Assembly: GCA_030418545.1 (NCBI GenBank)
Contig: QAIB01000001.1
Location: 248,001 to 312,000, forward strand
Length of the DNA stretch: 64,000 nucleotides
From: Xenophilus aerolatus
GTDB lineage: Bacteria > Pseudomonadota > Gammaproteobacteria > Burkholderiales > Burkholderiaceae_C
Direction: 5' to 3'
Shown here: positions 48,710-59,066 of the stretch, in pieces
Layout: every line of letters starts with the position of its first letter
Numbering within the stretch: position 1 is the first letter of the stretch
The notes under the pieces: model-generated
Databases searched by the model: none
What the model saw: only the letters and a program-made list of their open reading frames with translations
What the model was told of the DNA's origin: nothing
Translations under genes and position numbers: made by a program

Positions 48710-49690
48710 TCAGTCGGGCCGGATACCCGTGGCCTTGGCCAGCGCGGCGAAGCGCGCCGATTCGGATTGCACCCGCGCATGGAGCGCCGCGCCGGGCTCG
48801 CCGGTGATGTCGACGCCCTGCGCGCCGAACTCCGCGCGCAGGGCCGGGTCGGCCAGGGCCCGGGTGCTGGCTGCCTCGATGAGGCGCAGCGTGGCGGGTG
48901 GCGTGGCGGCGGGCGCGAACAGCCCGAACCAGGTGCCGGCTCGCAGGTCCGGGTAGCTTTCCGCCAGCGCCGGCGTGTTCGGCAGCAGCGGGTGGCGGCG
49001 CGCGCCGCCGCTGGCCAGCGCCACCAGGCGACCGGCCTGGATCTGCGGCAGTGCGGCACCGACGGCGATGAACATGGCGTCGATGCGGCCGGCCAGCACG
49101 TCCTGCAGGCCGGCGGGCGCGGCGCGGTAGGGGATGTGCGTCACGTAGATGCCCGCGCGCTGCTTGAGCAGTTCGGCCGCCAGCTGCTGCGGGCTGCCGT
49201 TGCCGCCGGACGCGTAATTCAACTGCCCCGGGCGCGCCTTGGCCGTGCGCACGAAGTCGCCCAGCGTGCGCCAGCCGGTGCCGGGATGCGTCACCAGCAC
49301 GAACTCCGTCTCGCCGAGCGCGGCGACCGGTGCCAGGTCGCGTTGCGCGTCGTAGGGCAGCGTGGCGCCCAGGGCGGGCAGGATGGTGATCGGCCCGTCG
49401 GCGCCGATCAGCAGGGTCCGGCCGTCCGGTGCGGCCTTGGCCACGGTGTCCGCCGCGATGGCGCCGCCCGCGCCGGGCTTGTTCTCGACCACCACGGGTG
49501 ACTTCCATTCCGCCGCCAGCTTCGCACCCAGGCGCCGGGCCAGCAGGTCGGGCGGACTGCCCGCCACGTTGAGCACGACCAGCCGCACGGGGCCGTTGGG
49601 AAAGGGATGGGGCTGCGCCTGCGTCGCCGTGGCGGCCAGCAGGCCGGTGAACGAGAGCAGGGCGGAAAGAAAGAGGCGGCGTTGGCGCAT
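48710..49690 (-). CDS. Bug/TctC-type tripartite tricarboxylate transporter receptor
   Basis: 326 residues. Signal peptide MRQRRLFLSALLSFTGLLAA is followed by the Bug fold: PVRLVVLNVAGSPPDLLARR, VVENKPGAGGAIAADTVAKA, PDGRTLLIGADGPITILPAL. It is the third Bug receptor in the window. It is convergent with the acyl-CoA synthetase gene, and its upstream side faces the restriction-modification locus. Confidence 0.88.
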   Translation of the reverse strand: MRQRRLFLSALLSFTGLLAATATQAQPHPFPNGPVRLVVLNVAGSPPDLLARRLGAKLAAEWKSPVVVENKPGAGGAIAADTVAKAAPDGRTLLIGADGPITILPALGATLPYDAQRDLAPVAALGETEFVLVTHPGTGWRTLGDFVRTAKARPGQLNYASGGNGSPQQLAAELLKQRAGIYVTHIPYRAAPAGLQDVLAGRIDAMFIAVGAALPQIQAGRLVALASGGARRHPLLPNTPALAESYPDLRAGTWFGLFAPAATPPATLRLIEAASTRALADPALRAEFGAQGVDITGEPGAALHARVQSESARFAALAKATGIRPD

Positions 49691-49904: not shown

Positions 49905-51748
49905 ATGACCCCTCAAGCCCTCTCGTCCTTCATCTGGTCCGTCGCCGATCTGCTGCGCGGCGACTACAAGCAGTCCGAATACGGTCGCGTCATCCTGCCC
50001 TTTACCGTGCTGCGCCGGCTCGACTGCGTGCTGGAAGCCACCAAGCCCAAGGTGCTGGCAGAAAAGGCCTCGCGCGAGAAGAAGGGCATCAACCCCGAGC
50101 CCTTCCTGTACCGCGCCGCAGGCAACCTGGGCTTCTACAACGATTCGCCGCTGGACCTGCCCACGCTGCTGGGTGACCAGGACCACATCCGCCAGAACCT
50201 CTACGCCTACGTCAAGGCCTTCTAACCCGAGGCGCGCGACATCTTCGAGCGCTTCGACTTCCATGCCCAGGTCGAGCGCTTGGCCAAGGCCAATCTGCTG
50301 TACCTGGTCACCGAGAAATTTGCGGGCATCGACCTGCACCCGGGCTCGGTCGACAACGCCAGCATGGGCGGGGTGTTTGAAGAGCTGATCCGCAAGTTCG
50401 CCGAAATCAGCAACGAGACGGCTGGGGAGCACTTCACCCCACGCGAAGTCATCCGCCTGATGGTAAACCTGCTCTTCATCGAAGACGACGACGTGCTCAC
50501 ACCGGGCAACGCCGTGGTGCGTACCGTGTACGACCCCACTGCGGGCACGGGGGCATGCTGTCGGTGGCAGGCGAGCACCTGCTGGCCCACAACCCGCAGG
50601 CCCGGCTCACGCTTTACGGCCAGGAACTCAACGACGAGAGCTATGCGATCTGCAAGGCCGACATGCTCATCCGTGGGCAGGACGTGGGCAACATCGTGGC
50701 CGGCAACACGCTGAGCGACGACGGCTACGCGGGCCGCAAGTTCGACTACATGCTCTCCAACCCGCCCTTCGGCGTGGAGTGGAAGAAGGTCGAAAAGGCC
50801 GTGCGGCAGGAGCATGAGCAGAAAGGCTTTGCCGGGCGCTTCGGCCCCGGACTGCCGCGGGTGAGCGACGGCTCCATGCTTTTCCTAATGCACCTGGTGG
50901 CCAAGATGCGGCCCGCGCAGGACGGCGGCAGCCGCTTCGGCATCGTGCTCAACGGCTCGCCCCTGTTCACGGGCGGCGCCGGCAGCGGCGAGAGCGAGAT
51001 CCGCCGCTACGTGCTGGAGAACGACCTGGTGGAGGCCATCGTGGGCCTGCCCACCGACATGTTCTACAACACCGGCATCGCCACCTATGTGTGGGTGTTG
51101 TCGAACAAGAAGCCGGCCGCGCGCAAAGGCCAGGTGCAGCTCATCGACGCCAGCGGCTTCTGGCAGAAGATGCGCAAGAGCCTGGGCAGCAAGCGACGGG
51201 AAATGAGCGAGGCCCACATCGCCACCGTCACGCGGCTGTTCGGTGACTTCACCGAGGCCGAGCTCGTCACCGTGTTCGACGCCGCCGGCCAGGCGCTGGG
51301 TGAGCCGCAGTTGGTGACGCACACCGACAACTCGCCCGTGGCGCCGGAGGGCGGCCGCCTCAGGCGCGCGCCCATCGCGCGCATCTTCCGCAACGAGGAC
51401 TTCGGCTACACCACCATCACCGTCGAGCGCCCGCTGAAGGACGCCGCGGGCCAGCCGGTGCTGGGCGCCAAGGGCAAGCAAAAAGGCAGGCCCCAGCCCG
51501 ACAGCGCGCTGCGCGACACCGAGAACGTGCCGCTGGGCGAAGACATCCGCGCCTACTTCGCACGCGAGGTGCTGCCGCATGCACCCGATGCGTGGATTGA
51601 CGAGGAGAAGAGCAAGGTGGGGTACGAGATCCCGTTCAACCGGCACTTCTACGTGTTCGAGCAGCCGCGCAGCTTGCAGGTGATCGATGAGGAGTTGAAG
51701 ACGGTGACGGCCAGCATCATGCGGATGCTGGGAGGGTTGGCGGAATGA
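49905..51748 (+). pseudogene. hsdM: Type I restriction DNA methyltransferase HsdM, disrupted twice
   Basis: Start MTPQALSSFIWSVADLLRGD is typical of HsdM. The frame stops at a TAA (50223-50225) in a place where the family reads ...KAFSPEARDIFERFDFHAQV; codons just after it encode PEARDIFERFDFHA in frame. It continues open until a G run at 50549-50553 (ACGGGGGCATG). One more G would give the SAM motif DPTAGTGGML, so a 1-base deletion shifts the frame. The rest runs cleanly from about 50555 through the catalytic NPPFGVEWK to 51748. The stop overlaps hsdS (ATGA). Without repair, no full methyltransferase can be made. Sequencing error in the G run is possible; the nonsense codon is harder to dismiss. 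Confidence 0.88.
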
Positions 51749-53008
51749 CGCTGCCGAGGTATGGGGAGTACAAGGACAGTGGCGTAGCGTGGCTGGGGCG
51801 AGTGCCTGTCCACTGGAACGTTGGCCGCCTCAAGTCAAAGGTATCGCTGGTTACTGAGAAGGCTTTTCGACGTACTCGCGCTGTGGCGTTGGAGCACATT
51901 GAAAGCTGGTCCGGGAGATTTGTACCGACTGAAGGCGAGTTCGAAGGCGAAGGCGTAGCGTTCTTGGCGGGCGACGTCCTGTTTGGGAAGCTGCGTCCTT
52001 ACCTGGCCAAGGTCTACGTTGCAGAAGACTCTGGTGAAGCCGTTGGTGATTTCCACATCCTCCGGCCCAGCGCAGCGGTGAGTCCGCAATTCCTGCAGTA
52101 TCAGATCCTGAACAGAGCATTCATCGATGTCGTTGATGGATCGACTTTCGGGTCGAAGATGCCAAGAGCCAGTTGGGAGTCGCTAGGGAACATGCCATTG
52201 GTGCTCCCGTCATTCGGTGAGCAAACTCTCATCGCCGCCTTCCTCGATCACGAAACCGCCAAGATCGACGCGCTGATTGCCGAGCAGGAAAAGCTCATCG
52301 CCCTGCTGGCCGAAAAGCGCCAGGCCACCATCTCCCACGCCGTCACCCGCGGCCTCGATCCCGATGCGCCGACGAAGGATTCCGGCGTGGCGTGGCTGGG
52401 GGGAGGTGCCGGCGCACTGGGAGGTCGTTCGTTTGGGCGCTGTACTTCGCGAAGTAGATGAACCTGGAAGTGCCGAACTCCCCGTGCTGAGTGTCTCCAT
52501 TCACGATGGGGTGTCAGACAAAGAATTGGACGAAAAGGAGATGGATCGGAAAGTTTCCCGAAGTGAGGACCGATCCAAGTACAAGGCGGTTCTGCCGGGA
52601 GATCTGACGTACAACATGATGCGTGCTTGGCAAGGTGGTTTTGGTGCGGTCACAGTTGCAGGAATGGTGAGTCCCGCATATGTTGTCGCGCGACCGGTTA
52701 GAGACCTTCTAACCATGCATCTCGAACTGCTCCTGCGAACTGCCGGGGCAGTGACGGAGATGAAGCGACATTCGCGCGGTGTCACTGATTTTCGTCTCCG
52801 CTTGTATTGGGACGAGTTCAAGACGATCGCGGTCGCACTCCCCTCCAAAGATGAGCAATCGCGCATTGCTGCGTTTCTCAGCGATGAGCTGAAGAAGTTC
52901 GACGCCTTGGGTAACGAAGGGGAACGCGCCATTGCATTGCTCAAAGAGCGCCGCTCCGCCCTCATAGCCGCGGCCGTCACCGGCAAGATTGACGTGCGCG
53001 GCGCATGA
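51745..53008 (+). pseudogene. hsdS: Type I restriction specificity subunit HsdS, frameshifted
   Basis: First target-recognition domain starts at [20 protein letters not shown], followed by the central conserved helix ([20 protein letters not shown]). The second half would begin [17 protein letters not shown], but six Gs at 52398-52403, where five are needed, shift the frame. The first frame ends at 52461, and the second half continues in another frame to 53008 with the conserved RIAAFLSDELKKFDAL. Both recognition domains have lower GC and atypical codons, as expected for exchanged domains. The truncated 238-residue product resembles a half-HsdS, which in some systems dimerises; here hsdM is also broken. 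Confidence 0.87.
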
Positions 53009-53030
53009 AGAAACAAGATCAGACAGAAAA

Positions 53031-55247
53031 ATGACACCTACGCTCACCGCCAAGGAGCAGTCGCTCGCCAAAATTTTCAGCGACGACTATGTCTTCACGA
53101 TTCCCGGCTACCAGCGCCCTTATGCCTGGGGCCGCGACCAGGCGCAGGAACTATTGGACGACCTGCTGGGCGCACTGGCCTCGGCGCCTGCACAGCTCAG
53201 CGAGGCGGCGCCTTACTTCCTCGGCAGCATCGTCCTTATTAAGGCCGAGGGAGGGCCAGAAGCCACGGTGGTGGATGGCCAGCAGCGACTGACGACGCTG
53301 ACGCTTCTGCTGTCGGCAATCCGGGCTACGGTGCAGGATTCAGCCGTCCAAGTGGGCATCACCAGGCGCATCTATGAGCACGGAGATGTAGTCTCGGCGA
53401 CGCAGGCGCGCTACCGGCTGCTGCTGCGCGAGCGTGACCGCGACTTCTTCCGCCAGTACGTGCAGCACGAGAACGGCCTGCAGGCGATGGCGCAGCTCAA
53501 CACCGTACTGCCCGACGCGCAAGCTCGCCTGCGAGTCAACGCCCAGGTATTCATGGACGGACTTGCCAAGCTGGGGCAGGCTGACCTCGTGCGGCTGGTG
53601 CAGTTCGTCATCACCCGCTGCTACTTGGTCACGGTGGCCACACCGGATCTGGATTCGGCGTACCGCATCTTCGGCGTCCTCAACAGCCGCGGCCTTGACC
53701 TGAGCGCCACCGACATCCTCAAGGCCGAAGTCATCGGCGGCATCGAGCCCGCGCTGCGTGACGCTTATACAAAGAAGTGGGAGGACGAGGAGGAGGACCT
53801 GGGCCGCGACGAGTTCGGGGATCTCTTCAGCCACATCCGCATGGTCTATCGAAAGGCCAAGCCCCAGGGCACGCTGCTGAAGGAGTTCAAGGAGCACGTG
53901 GCGCCCGCCAGCCGCAAGGAGGCGGTGCGCTGGCAGAAGGCCATTCGCGGCTACATCACGCGGCAGGGCTATGCGCTCGGGGTGCTGGTGGCGTTCTCCG
54001 GTGAGGTGCTGGACGAGGAGACTTATCCCGAGGCGGTGACGGAGACGAGTCAGGCGCTCAATCCCGGACTGAAAGGTCGTGACATCCGCGAAGTGTTCAA
54101 GGAGCCGGAGCACCACCTGCTGTTGGTCGCCAACAAGTTCCAGACCGGCTTCGACCAGCCGCTGCTGTGCGGCATGTACGTGGACAAGCAGCTCGGCGGC
54201 ATTCAGGCGGTGCAGACGTTGTCGCGCCTGAACCGCGCGTATCCGGGCAAGGACACCACCTACATCCTCGATTTCGTGAACGAGCCGGCCGAGATTCTCA
54301 AGGCCTTCAAGGCCTACCATGAGACGGCGGAGCTGGAGAGCGCGACGGACCCGCATCTCGTCTACGACCTGCGCGCCAAGCTGGACGCGACCGGCCATTA
54401 CGACGAGTTCGAGGTGGAGCGCGTGGTGCAGGTGGAGGTCGTCCCAAATGGCACACAAAAGGCGCTGGACGCCGCCATCACGCCGGTCGCAGACCGCTTG
54501 CTGAAGAAGTACAAGGCGGCGCAGGCGAACAAATTGGCGGCCGAGGAGGGCGGCGACGCGAAGGCGGCGCAGATGGCAAAGGACGAGATGGACGCACTGC
54601 TGCTCTTCAAGAGCGACATGGGCGCGTACCAGCGGCTTTATGCCTTCCTGGGCCAGATATTCGACTACGGGAACACGGCCATCGAGAAGCGCTTCATGTT
54701 CTTCCGCCGCCTGCTGCCTTTGCTGGACTTCGGCCGGGAGCGCGACACGGTGGATCTGAGCAAGGTCGTGCTCACGCACCACACGCTCAAGAGCCGTGGC
54801 AAGCAGCCGATGGGGCTGAACGCCGACGGCACTTACAAGCTGCCGCCCATGGATGCGGTGGGCAGCGGCAGCGTGCAGGAGAAAGAGCGAGCCTACCTCG
54901 TGGAAATCATCGAAAAGGTAAACGGCCTGTTTGAGGGCGATCTCAGCGACGGCGACCAACTGGTCTATGTGAACGGTGTTCTCAAGGGCAAGCTCCTGGA
55001 GAACGAGACCCTGGTGCAGCAGGCCGCCAGCAATAGCAAGGAGCAGTTCGCCAACTCCCCCGATCTGAAGACGGCCCTGGTGGACGCCATCATGGACACG
55101 CTGGAGGCTTATGGGTCGATGGGCACCCAGGCGCTGAATTCCGAGCGGGTGCGCGATGGACTCAAGGACGCGTTGCTGGGCCCGGCTCACCTTTACGAGG
55201 CCCTGCGCTCGCGCTCGGCGGCCCAGGGGCCGGGTGCCTCGCTGTAG
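53031..55247 (+). CDS. Chimeric ORF: DUF262 (GmrS) N-terminus joined to C-terminal half of HsdR
   Basis: 738 residues in one open frame. Residues 1 to about 290 are a DUF262/GmrS NTPase domain: IPGYQRPYAWGRDQ, TVVDGQQRLTTLTLLL (DGQQR motif) and FGVLNSRGLDLSATDILKAE. From about residue 291 (SRKEAVRWQKAIRGYI) it becomes the second helicase domain and C-terminal part of a type I HsdR: LVANKFQTGFDQPLLCGMYV, motif VI QTLSRLNRAYPGKDTTYIL, and FMFFRRLLPLLDFGRERDTV. The junction is near 53895-53912. DUF262's DUF1524/HNH part and HsdR's nuclease and first helicase domain are absent. A deletion between neighbouring DUF262 and hsdR genes explains this best. Whether it is expressed or functional is unknown. 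Confidence 0.85.
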   Translation: MTPTLTAKEQSLAKIFSDDYVFTIPGYQRPYAWGRDQAQELLDDLLGALASAPAQLSEAAPYFLGSIVLIKAEGGPEATVVDGQQRLTTLTLLLSAIRATVQDSAVQVGITRRIYEHGDVVSATQARYRLLLRERDRDFFRQYVQHENGLQAMAQLNTVLPDAQARLRVNAQVFMDGLAKLGQADLVRLVQFVITRCYLVTVATPDLDSAYRIFGVLNSRGLDLSATDILKAEVIGGIEPALRDAYTKKWEDEEEDLGRDEFGDLFSHIRMVYRKAKPQGTLLKEFKEHVAPASRKEAVRWQKAIRGYITRQGYALGVLVAFSGEVLDEETYPEAVTETSQALNPGLKGRDIREVFKEPEHHLLLVANKFQTGFDQPLLCGMYVDKQLGGIQAVQTLSRLNRAYPGKDTTYILDFVNEPAEILKAFKAYHETAELESATDPHLVYDLRAKLDATGHYDEFEVERVVQVEVVPNGTQKALDAAITPVADRLLKKYKAAQANKLAAEEGGDAKAAQMAKDEMDALLLFKSDMGAYQRLYAFLGQIFDYGNTAIEKRFMFFRRLLPLLDFGRERDTVDLSKVVLTHHTLKSRGKQPMGLNADGTYKLPPMDAVGSGSVQEKERAYLVEIIEKVNGLFEGDLSDGDQLVYVNGVLKGKLLENETLVQQAASNSKEQFANSPDLKTALVDAIMDTLEAYGSMGTQALNSERVRDGLKDALLGPAHLYEALRSRSAAQGPGASL

Positions 55248-56786: not shown

Positions 56787-58046
56787 ATGACAACACCCAC
56801 TCCGGTCGCATGTGCCGTCGCATGCGACGCCAGCAGTCTGCACGCGCGTTTTCGCTCCGTGCGTGCGCACAGCCTGGCCCTGGCCGCGCCACTCTCGGCG
56901 GAGGACCAGTGCATCCAGTCGATGCCCGACGCCAGCCCGACCAAGTGGCACCTCGCGCACACCACCTGGTTCTTCGAGACGGTGCTGCTGGAGCGCCACG
57001 CCACCGGGTATCGCGCCTTCGACCGGCGCCTGCATTACCTCTTCAACTCCTACTACGAGGCGCTCGGCCCGCGCCACCCGCGGCCGCAGCGCGGCCTGCT
57101 CACGCGGCCCTCGCTCGACGAGGTGATGGCTTATCGCCAGCATGTCGACGCGGCGGTGGAATCGCTGCTCGCCTCGGCCGATGCGGCCGGCCTCGCGGCC
57201 ATCGAGCCCATCGTCACCCTGGGCCTGAACCATGAGCAACAGCACCAGGAACTGCTGCTGACCGACATCCTGCATGCCTTCTCGTGCAACCCGCTGCTGC
57301 CGGCGTATCGCAGTGCCGCCCAGCCCGCGCTGCGCCTGGCGACGCAGGCGCCGGCGGCGCAATGGCTGGCGCACCCGGGCGGCCCGGTCGAGGTCGGGCA
57401 CGGCGGCGAAGGTTTTGCCTTCGACAACGAAGGGCCGCGCCACACGGCGCTGGTGCCGGCTTTCTCGATCCAGGACCGGCTGGTCAACTGCGGCGAATTC
57501 GCGCAGTTCATTGCCGACGGCGGCTATCGCCGGCCGGAACTCTGGCTGTCCGACGGCTGGGCGGCCGTGCAGGCGCAGGGCTGGCAGCACCCGGCGTACT
57601 GGCTGGCCCCGGACGATCCGCGCCTGGCGCATCTGCAGGGCGGCCACGGCGGCGGCTGGCAGGTCTTCGGGCTGCACGGCGTGCGGCCGCTCGAGCCCGA
57701 GGCGCCGGTGTCGCAGCTGAGCTTCTACGAGGCCGCTGCATACGCCGAATGGGCGGGTGCTCGCCTGCCGACCGAGTTCGAGTGGGAGGCGGCCAGTTCG
57801 CTGCCGGGCATGACGCAGCTCACGGGCCATGTGTGGCAGTGGACGCGCTCCTCCTACGACCCGTACCCGGGCTTTCGCCCGCTGCCGGGCGTGGCGGCCG
57901 AGTACAACGGCAAGTTCATGGTGGGGCAACTGGTGCTGCGCGGCGGCAGCGTGGCCACGCCCGAGGGCCACACGCGGCCCACCTACCGCAACTTCTTCCC
58001 GCCCGCTGCGCGCTGGCAGTTCACCGGGCTGCGCCTCGCGCGCTGA
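56787..58046 (+). CDS. egtB: Ergothioneine biosynthesis sulfoxide synthase EgtB
   Basis: 419 residues. An N-terminal DinB-like domain supplies the iron ligands (WHLAH at 54-58; LNHEQQHQE with H149 and H153), and a C-terminal formylglycine-generating-enzyme/sulfatase-modifying fold follows (FSIQDRLVNCGEFAQFI; RLPTEFEWEAASS; VLRGGSVATPEGHTRPTYRN). EgtB joins a thiol to hercynine using O2 in ergothioneine synthesis. It is followed 39 bp later by egtD, as in many proteobacteria. No egtA, egtC or C-S lyase gene is adjacent, suggesting direct use of cysteine and a lyase elsewhere. Confidence 0.9.
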   Translation: MTTPTPVACAVACDASSLHARFRSVRAHSLALAAPLSAEDQCIQSMPDASPTKWHLAHTTWFFETVLLERHATGYRAFDRRLHYLFNSYYEALGPRHPRPQRGLLTRPSLDEVMAYRQHVDAAVESLLASADAAGLAAIEPIVTLGLNHEQQHQELLLTDILHAFSCNPLLPAYRSAAQPALRLATQAPAAQWLAHPGGPVEVGHGGEGFAFDNEGPRHTALVPAFSIQDRLVNCGEFAQFIADGGYRRPELWLSDGWAAVQAQGWQHPAYWLAPDDPRLAHLQGGHGGGWQVFGLHGVRPLEPEAPVSQLSFYEAAAYAEWAGARLPTEFEWEAASSLPGMTQLTGHVWQWTRSSYDPYPGFRPLPGVAAEYNGKFMVGQLVLRGGSVATPEGHTRPTYRNFFPPAARWQFTGLRLAR

Positions 58047-58085
58047 GTGCCCTCCCACCCACCCCGTTCACGAGACAGACCGACG

Positions 58086-59066
58086 ATGGCACCCCCTTCC
58101 CACTCTTCCAGCGCCGCAGAGCGCGAATGCAGCGCCGACACCGACTGCGCCTTCGGCCACGACCTCGCGCGCGCGCTGGCCGAGCGGCCGCGCCGCATCT
58201 CGCCCAAGTACTTCTACGACGTGCGCGGCTCGCAGCTCTTCGACCGCATCTGCGAGCTGCCCGAGTACTACCCCACGCGCACCGAGCTGGGCATCCTCAC
58301 GCAGCGTGCCGGCGAGATCGCCGCGCAGATCGGCCCGCGGGCCGAGATCGTGGAGTTCGGCGCGGGCTCGCTGGTCAAGGTGCGGCTGCTGCTCGATGCG
58401 CTGCAGTCGCCGCAGCGCTATTTGCCCATCGACATCTCGGGCGAGCACCTCGAGGCCGCCGCCGATACCCTGCGTGCCGATTACCCGGGCCTCGCGGTGC
58501 AGCCCATCGTGGCCGACTACACCCGGCCCTTCGCGCTGCCGCCCAAGCTCGAAGGCGCCGGGCGCCGCGTGGGCTTCTTCCCCGGCTCGACGCTGGGCAA
58601 CTTCGACCCCGACGAGGCGTTGGCCTTCCTGCAGCAGGCGGCGCGGCTGCTGCGCGGCGGCGGGCTGCTGCTGGGTGTCGACCTTGTCAAGAAGCCCGCA
58701 TTGCTGCATGCGGCCTACAACGACGCGCAGGGCGTGACGGCGGCCTTCAACCTCAACCTGCTGGCGCGTGCGAACGCGGAACTGGGCACGGACTTCGACC
58801 TCGACGGCTTCGACCACGCGGCCTTCTACAACGCGCCCCTGCGCCGCATCGAGATGCATTTGGTCAGCCGCCGCGCGCAGGCCGTCACGCTGAACGGGCA
58901 GCGCCACACGATCGACGAAGGCGAGGCCATCCACACCGAGAACTCGCACAAGTTCACCATCGAAGGGCTGCGTGCACTGGCGGTGCGCGCGGGCTTCGGC
59001 ATCGGGCCGGTGTGGACCGATCCCGATCGCCTCTTCAGCGTGCATTGGCTACCAACGGCACAATAA
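58086..59066 (+). CDS. egtD: L-histidine N(alpha)-methyltransferase EgtD
   Basis: 326 residues from the ATG at 58086; a GTG at 58047 directly after egtB is an alternative. The EgtD fold shows PKYFYDVRGSQLFDRICELP, PTRTELGILTQRAGEIAAQI, the SAM site IVEFGAGSLVKVRLLLDAL, YLPIDISGEHLEAAADTL and FFPGSTLGNFDPDEALAFLQ. The C-terminal part contains IHTENSHKFTIEGL, lining the histidine site. It trimethylates histidine to hercynine, which EgtB then sulfurises. Confidence 0.92.
   Translation: MAPPSHSSSAAERECSADTDCAFGHDLARALAERPRRISPKYFYDVRGSQLFDRICELPEYYPTRTELGILTQRAGEIAAQIGPRAEIVEFGAGSLVKVRLLLDALQSPQRYLPIDISGEHLEAAADTLRADYPGLAVQPIVADYTRPFALPPKLEGAGRRVGFFPGSTLGNFDPDEALAFLQQAARLLRGGGLLLGVDLVKKPALLHAAYNDAQGVTAAFNLNLLARANAELGTDFDLDGFDHAAFYNAPLRRIEMHLVSRRAQAVTLNGQRHTIDEGEAIHTENSHKFTIEGLRALAVRAGFGIGPVWTDPDRLFSVHWLPTAQ

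Follow-up and report, generated by a model that had tools for sequence, protein, structure and literature searches.

A chimeric DUF262-HsdR reading frame in Xenophilus aerolatus, very probably a pseudogene within a recently dead type I restriction-modification locus

Xenophilus aerolatus, of the Xenophilus group, is a soil-type bacterium, and in the 64,000-nucleotide stretch of its genome analysed here (the window) a long open frame begins like a DUF262 protein and ends like the type I restriction subunit HsdR. Such a frame raises the question of whether it is a relic or a new GmrS-helicase protein, and an earlier note, made from the sequence alone, left both readings standing. As argued below, we hold it very probable that the window contains a recently dead type I restriction-modification (R-M) locus with a chimeric pseudogene, the frame of which was kept by chance.

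The frame occupies window positions 53031-55247 and, as the earlier note stated, its translation is uninterrupted over 738 codons from an ATG start. Pfam profiles place GmrSD_N at residues 13-234 (E 3.6e-36) and a T1R_D3-like domain at residues 350-415 (E 3.6e-10), and both VVDGQQR and QTLSRLNR are found in the translation, in agreement with a DUF262/GmrS start that retains its DGQQR motif. The N-terminal half (53031..53901, + strand; about 290 residues) corresponds to the N-terminal part of a GmrSD/RloF-type protein and lies in the position of RloF; it has lost GmrSD_C and DUF4357. The second half, from residue ~293 onward (53907..55247, + strand), consists of the C-terminal ~446 residues of a type I HsdR, namely the rest of the second helicase domain with motif VI (QTLSRLNR) and the C-terminal helical region. 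Both the HSDR_N nuclease and the SWI2_SNF2 motor domain are lost from this half, and the Pfam comparison of the fusion with its parents agrees with the earlier view that the nuclease, the first helicase domain and the DUF1524/HNH part are gone. The fusion therefore has the N-terminal DUF262 with DGQQR of a GmrSD type IV enzyme but not its C-terminal DUF1524/HNH, which is absent from both the fusion and the genome, fused or as a partner; of the domains of a type I HsdR, it lacks HSDR_N and the full pair of RecA-like motor domains and shows only the T1R_D3-like match. Residues 350-409 align with residues 639-698 of EcoR124I HsdR (2w00), compared with which the fusion lacks ~600 residues from the N-terminus of the HsdR parent.

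An open frame of this length is in itself weak evidence of function, because GC content is 70% and the six frames of the 64 kb contain 30 stop-to-stop runs of at least 600 codons. The chance of an in-frame joining is one in three; the two alternative junction frames would reach a stop within 32 or 44 codons. The AlphaFold model of the fusion is poor (mean pLDDT 49.3, pTM 0.28, from a 28-sequence alignment with some DUF262 rows apparently misaligned), and values above 70 are confined to parts of the HsdR half, chiefly residues ~440-570.

Loci in relatives reveal where the two halves came from. Their gene order is hsdM-hsdS-DUF262-hsdR, with DUF262 and hsdR as separate neighbours, which implies that a deletion of ~3.0 kb joined the two. 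In L047 and L049, only two bases separate the DUF262 stop from the hsdR start, and by DNA matches the upstream genes are again hsdM and then hsdS. Open frames were examined in four relatives; the domains of the DUF262 parents are GmrSD_N, GmrSD_C and DUF4357, and those of the HsdR parents are HSDR_N, SWI2_SNF2/ResIII and T1R_D3-like. Both halves are present in 17 of 80 loci from GTDB contigs (80 kept of 128 found), and lie 2,679-4,945 bp apart in 16 of them; the exception, L054 from the near-identical Xenophilus sp. E41, has no gap between the halves, as in the window. Six of the 17 (L063, L064, L066, L079, L094 and L095), and also L104, have only distant DUF262 matches (25-31% identity) and thus support the gene order, not membership in the same subfamily. 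The size of the deletion is taken from L057, L059, L062 and L067, four loci that lack an extra gene and match the DUF262 part closely; their gap is 3,027-3,054 bp. As in a pseudogene formed by deletion, then, the parents are separate and adjacent in relatives, and the segment between them is present there and missing here, just as the earlier note had supposed.

The junction itself lies at 53900..53910, with ~3.0 kb missing relative to loci of simple gene order. DUF262 proteins of relatives cover residues 1-290/291 and their HsdR proteins start at residue 293/294, while at the DNA level DUF262 homology stops and HsdR homology starts within about 53899-53910; the homology switch at about 53900-53909 falls inside the interval predicted earlier (53895-53912). 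Compared with the relatives, which stand in for the true ancestor, the junction shows at most a few bases of repeat. Counted from the L047 parents, the lost segment comprises ~415 residues of DUF262 (GmrSD_C and DUF4357) and ~600 residues of HsdR. The HsdR breakpoint therefore corresponds to parent residue ~602, such that motif VI is kept and the ATP-binding first motor domain is not. A weak, non-significant alignment stretch (-0.6 bits) puts this breakpoint near residue 545 of EcoR124I, inside the second helicase domain, which we take to begin near residue 470. The start of that domain was thus probably lost too, judging from the alignment, so that the switch near residue 291 into an HsdR with motif VI stands, and a complete second helicase domain, as first proposed, probably does not.

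The two genes upstream are themselves broken. The hsdM pseudogene (49906..51748, + strand) has a TAA at 50223-50225, where the five aligned relatives all encode serine (TCG/TCT), and a one-base deletion after 50548 inside the DPTAGTG methyltransferase motif; all five relatives have one base more at this site, and their frames are open over 612-621 codons. The hsdS pseudogene (51745..53008, + strand) reads six G in a row at about 52398-52403, one too many for the frame; four of five relatives have one base fewer here (the alignment of the fifth, L045, stops before the site). The hsdS pieces have no Pfam match, and the name rests on their position and similarity to relatives' loci. The single-base indels of hsdM and of hsdS may be sequencing errors; a second assembly (G006) shares them, but its reads may not be independent. 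As they stand, the intact hsdM and hsdS frames of a working type I R-M system are absent. The origin of the parents as adjacent genes in one operon is thus borne out by the loci of relatives, but not by an intact hsdM and hsdS next door.

Could the missing domains be supplied from elsewhere in the genome? HSDR_N has no match in the whole genome, although the same search was positive in nine of 14 control genomes, and GmrSD_C likewise has none (positive in six of the 14). There is no GmrSD_N match besides the fusion and no N6_Mtase match besides the two hsdM pieces, and we therefore rejected a second system, or further copies of these domains, that would complement the fusion.

Nor is the fusion widespread. 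Matches to the fusion protein occur in nine of 15 genomes of the genus, with both halves only in its own genome and in G006, marked as the same species. G006 shows no difference across 19,001 bases that span the junction and 100% identity over a separate 20 kb stretch, and hence represents the same lineage, not independent evolution. In the family, 241 of 399 genomes match, and among the matches listed its own genome alone spans the junction. A single-protein fusion is present in just one of the 80 GTDB-contig loci, again that of Xenophilus sp. E41, and none of the 856 plasmid records or three phage records that match the fusion holds 80% of the query in one place. The search for the same fusion in other genomes that the earlier note had called for thus yielded, among the matches listed, only this near-identical strain. 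A known conserved single family, which would have spoken against a fusion altogether, was not found either, as the halves match separate genes. With no diverged lineage among the matches listed from the genus, family, GTDB contig, plasmid and phage collections, a conserved DUF262-HsdR family was rejected.

The main alternative is that the chimera is a new functional protein, in which a DUF262 NTPase or sensor is tethered to the C-terminal region of HsdR, and which works with a nuclease encoded elsewhere or acts by binding. We consider this quite improbable, and equally so the variant that it is made and was kept after loss of the R-M system as a defence or regulatory protein with a GmrS-type nucleotide switch. 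A 2.2 kb frame that remains open, the retained DGQQR and residues conserved as in relatives all speak for a new protein, as does the reported occurrence of DUF262 without DUF1524 in the Menshen, Dazbog and PD-T4-2 systems (PMC10952713). Against it, HsdM, the assembly partner of HsdR, is itself broken, the fusion lacks the SWI2_SNF2 motor domain of its parents, the genome offers no GmrSD_C, HSDR_N or second GmrSD_N match, and a second lineage was not found in the collections searched; the lack of a sigma-70-like promoter in 52700-53200 adds weak evidence. We favour a relic over a new protein because hsdM and hsdS have lesions of their own, the first motor domain is gone, neither of the two nuclease-domain profiles (HSDR_N and GmrSD_C) matches anywhere in the genome, and no diverged lineage with the fusion was met in the collections searched. 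Of the two readings in the earlier note, the relic is accordingly retained and the new GmrS-helicase protein is not.

Against a relic speak the absence of any excess of amino-acid changes in the kept parts, the chance that the hsdM and hsdS indels are sequencing errors, and the still open hsdR frame of a sister species (G014). In the DUF262 part, none of 218 columns invariant in five relatives is changed (controls 0-20), and in the HsdR part, four of 276 columns invariant among seven relatives are changed (controls 2-13). In pairwise comparisons with the relatives, dN/dS lies at 0.04-0.17; one DUF262 pair gives no defined value, and several dS exceed 1. This lack of a sign of decay is explained by recent death, which is our reading, but would also follow from retained function; nothing favours function over recent death of the locus.

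That the junction stems from wrongly joined reads is the least probable explanation, a very slim chance at best: the second assembly may come from the same strain, but it has the identical junction, is divided into ~40 contigs versus 47, and the junction shows no long repeat.

We therefore propose the recent death, in this Xenophilus lineage, of a type I operon that harboured a GmrSD-like gene (hsdM-hsdS-DUF262-hsdR). A single ~3 kb deletion between the adjacent DUF262 and hsdR genes, possibly by illegitimate recombination, would have created the in-frame chimera, while a frameshift would have arisen in each of hsdM and hsdS, and in hsdM a stop codon as well; the order of these lesions, their recency and the lack of function are what we infer. 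The chimera, if made, should neither cut nor translocate DNA.

The surroundings suggest that the locus may have been acquired horizontally, as its presence at the site is patchy. In four genomes of the genus (G001, G007, G009 and G010), both flanks lie 0.8-1.5 kb apart and the fusion protein is unmatched (the left flank of G001 matches only to about 48658), so the locus was inserted or lost at this site. A TctC-family receptor gene (window 48710-49690, - strand) adjoins the R-M locus and forms part of the left flank that persists in G007, G009 and G010, all of which lack the R-M genes at this site. Farther along the window, at 56787-59066, an FGE-sulfatase/DinB_2 gene adjoins a Methyltransf_33 gene, as would be expected of the genes for EgtB and EgtD in ergothioneine synthesis.

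In a sister species (G014), probably Xenophilus sp. Marseille-Q4582, the locus occupies the same site; its hsdM is interrupted by a DDE_3 transposase gene, an IS21-type pair lies nearby, and its hsdR frame is open over 1,089 codons. The damage to the locus thus differs between two sister species. In G014, the 3' half of hsdM is found at both C6:34505-35452 and C6:493190-494137, ~459 kb apart; the two matches agree in length, identity and score, and the region next to the transposase gene is apparently present in a second copy. Between hsdM and hsdR the same genome encodes a 298-residue DUF4357 protein (L046 9360-10256, - strand); DUF4357 is the C-terminal domain of the DUF262 parents, and G014 itself has no DUF262 match there. 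In G011, a related operon is on another contig than its copies of these flanks, and its DUF262 and hsdR genes are separated by an extra gene whose product has an M78/IrrE-like domain (L045 6875-8023, - strand).

According to PMC4619093, DUF262 genes between hsdS and hsdR are termed RloF, and type I systems are the commonest defence neighbours of GmrSD genes; PMC11411939 describes tgvAB of Vibrio cholerae as an active example. The rloF of Campylobacter jejuni and tgvAB occupy the same position in type I operons and have the N-terminal DUF262 with DGQQR (PMC4619093 and PMC11411939). Their products, however, are separate from HsdR, and TgvB has DUF1524, whereas here the DUF1524 part is deleted and the rest is joined to HsdR. 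The T1RM cluster of V. cholerae DRC193A, with hsdS disrupted by IS256 (PMC11411939), resembles the present locus in that a type I system was inactivated through mutation of a subunit; unlike it, the present locus combines a chimeric deletion with small mutations in hsdM and hsdS. Among the matches listed in the open-licence literature, none names a DUF262-HsdR fusion in its accessible text.

Were the chimera functional, it would represent a DUF262 architecture met nowhere else in the collections searched. This case documents how a GmrSD gene embedded in a type I R-M operon can disappear along with that operon, and cautions that in a GC-rich genome two good domain matches in one open frame do not always mean a new multidomain protein.
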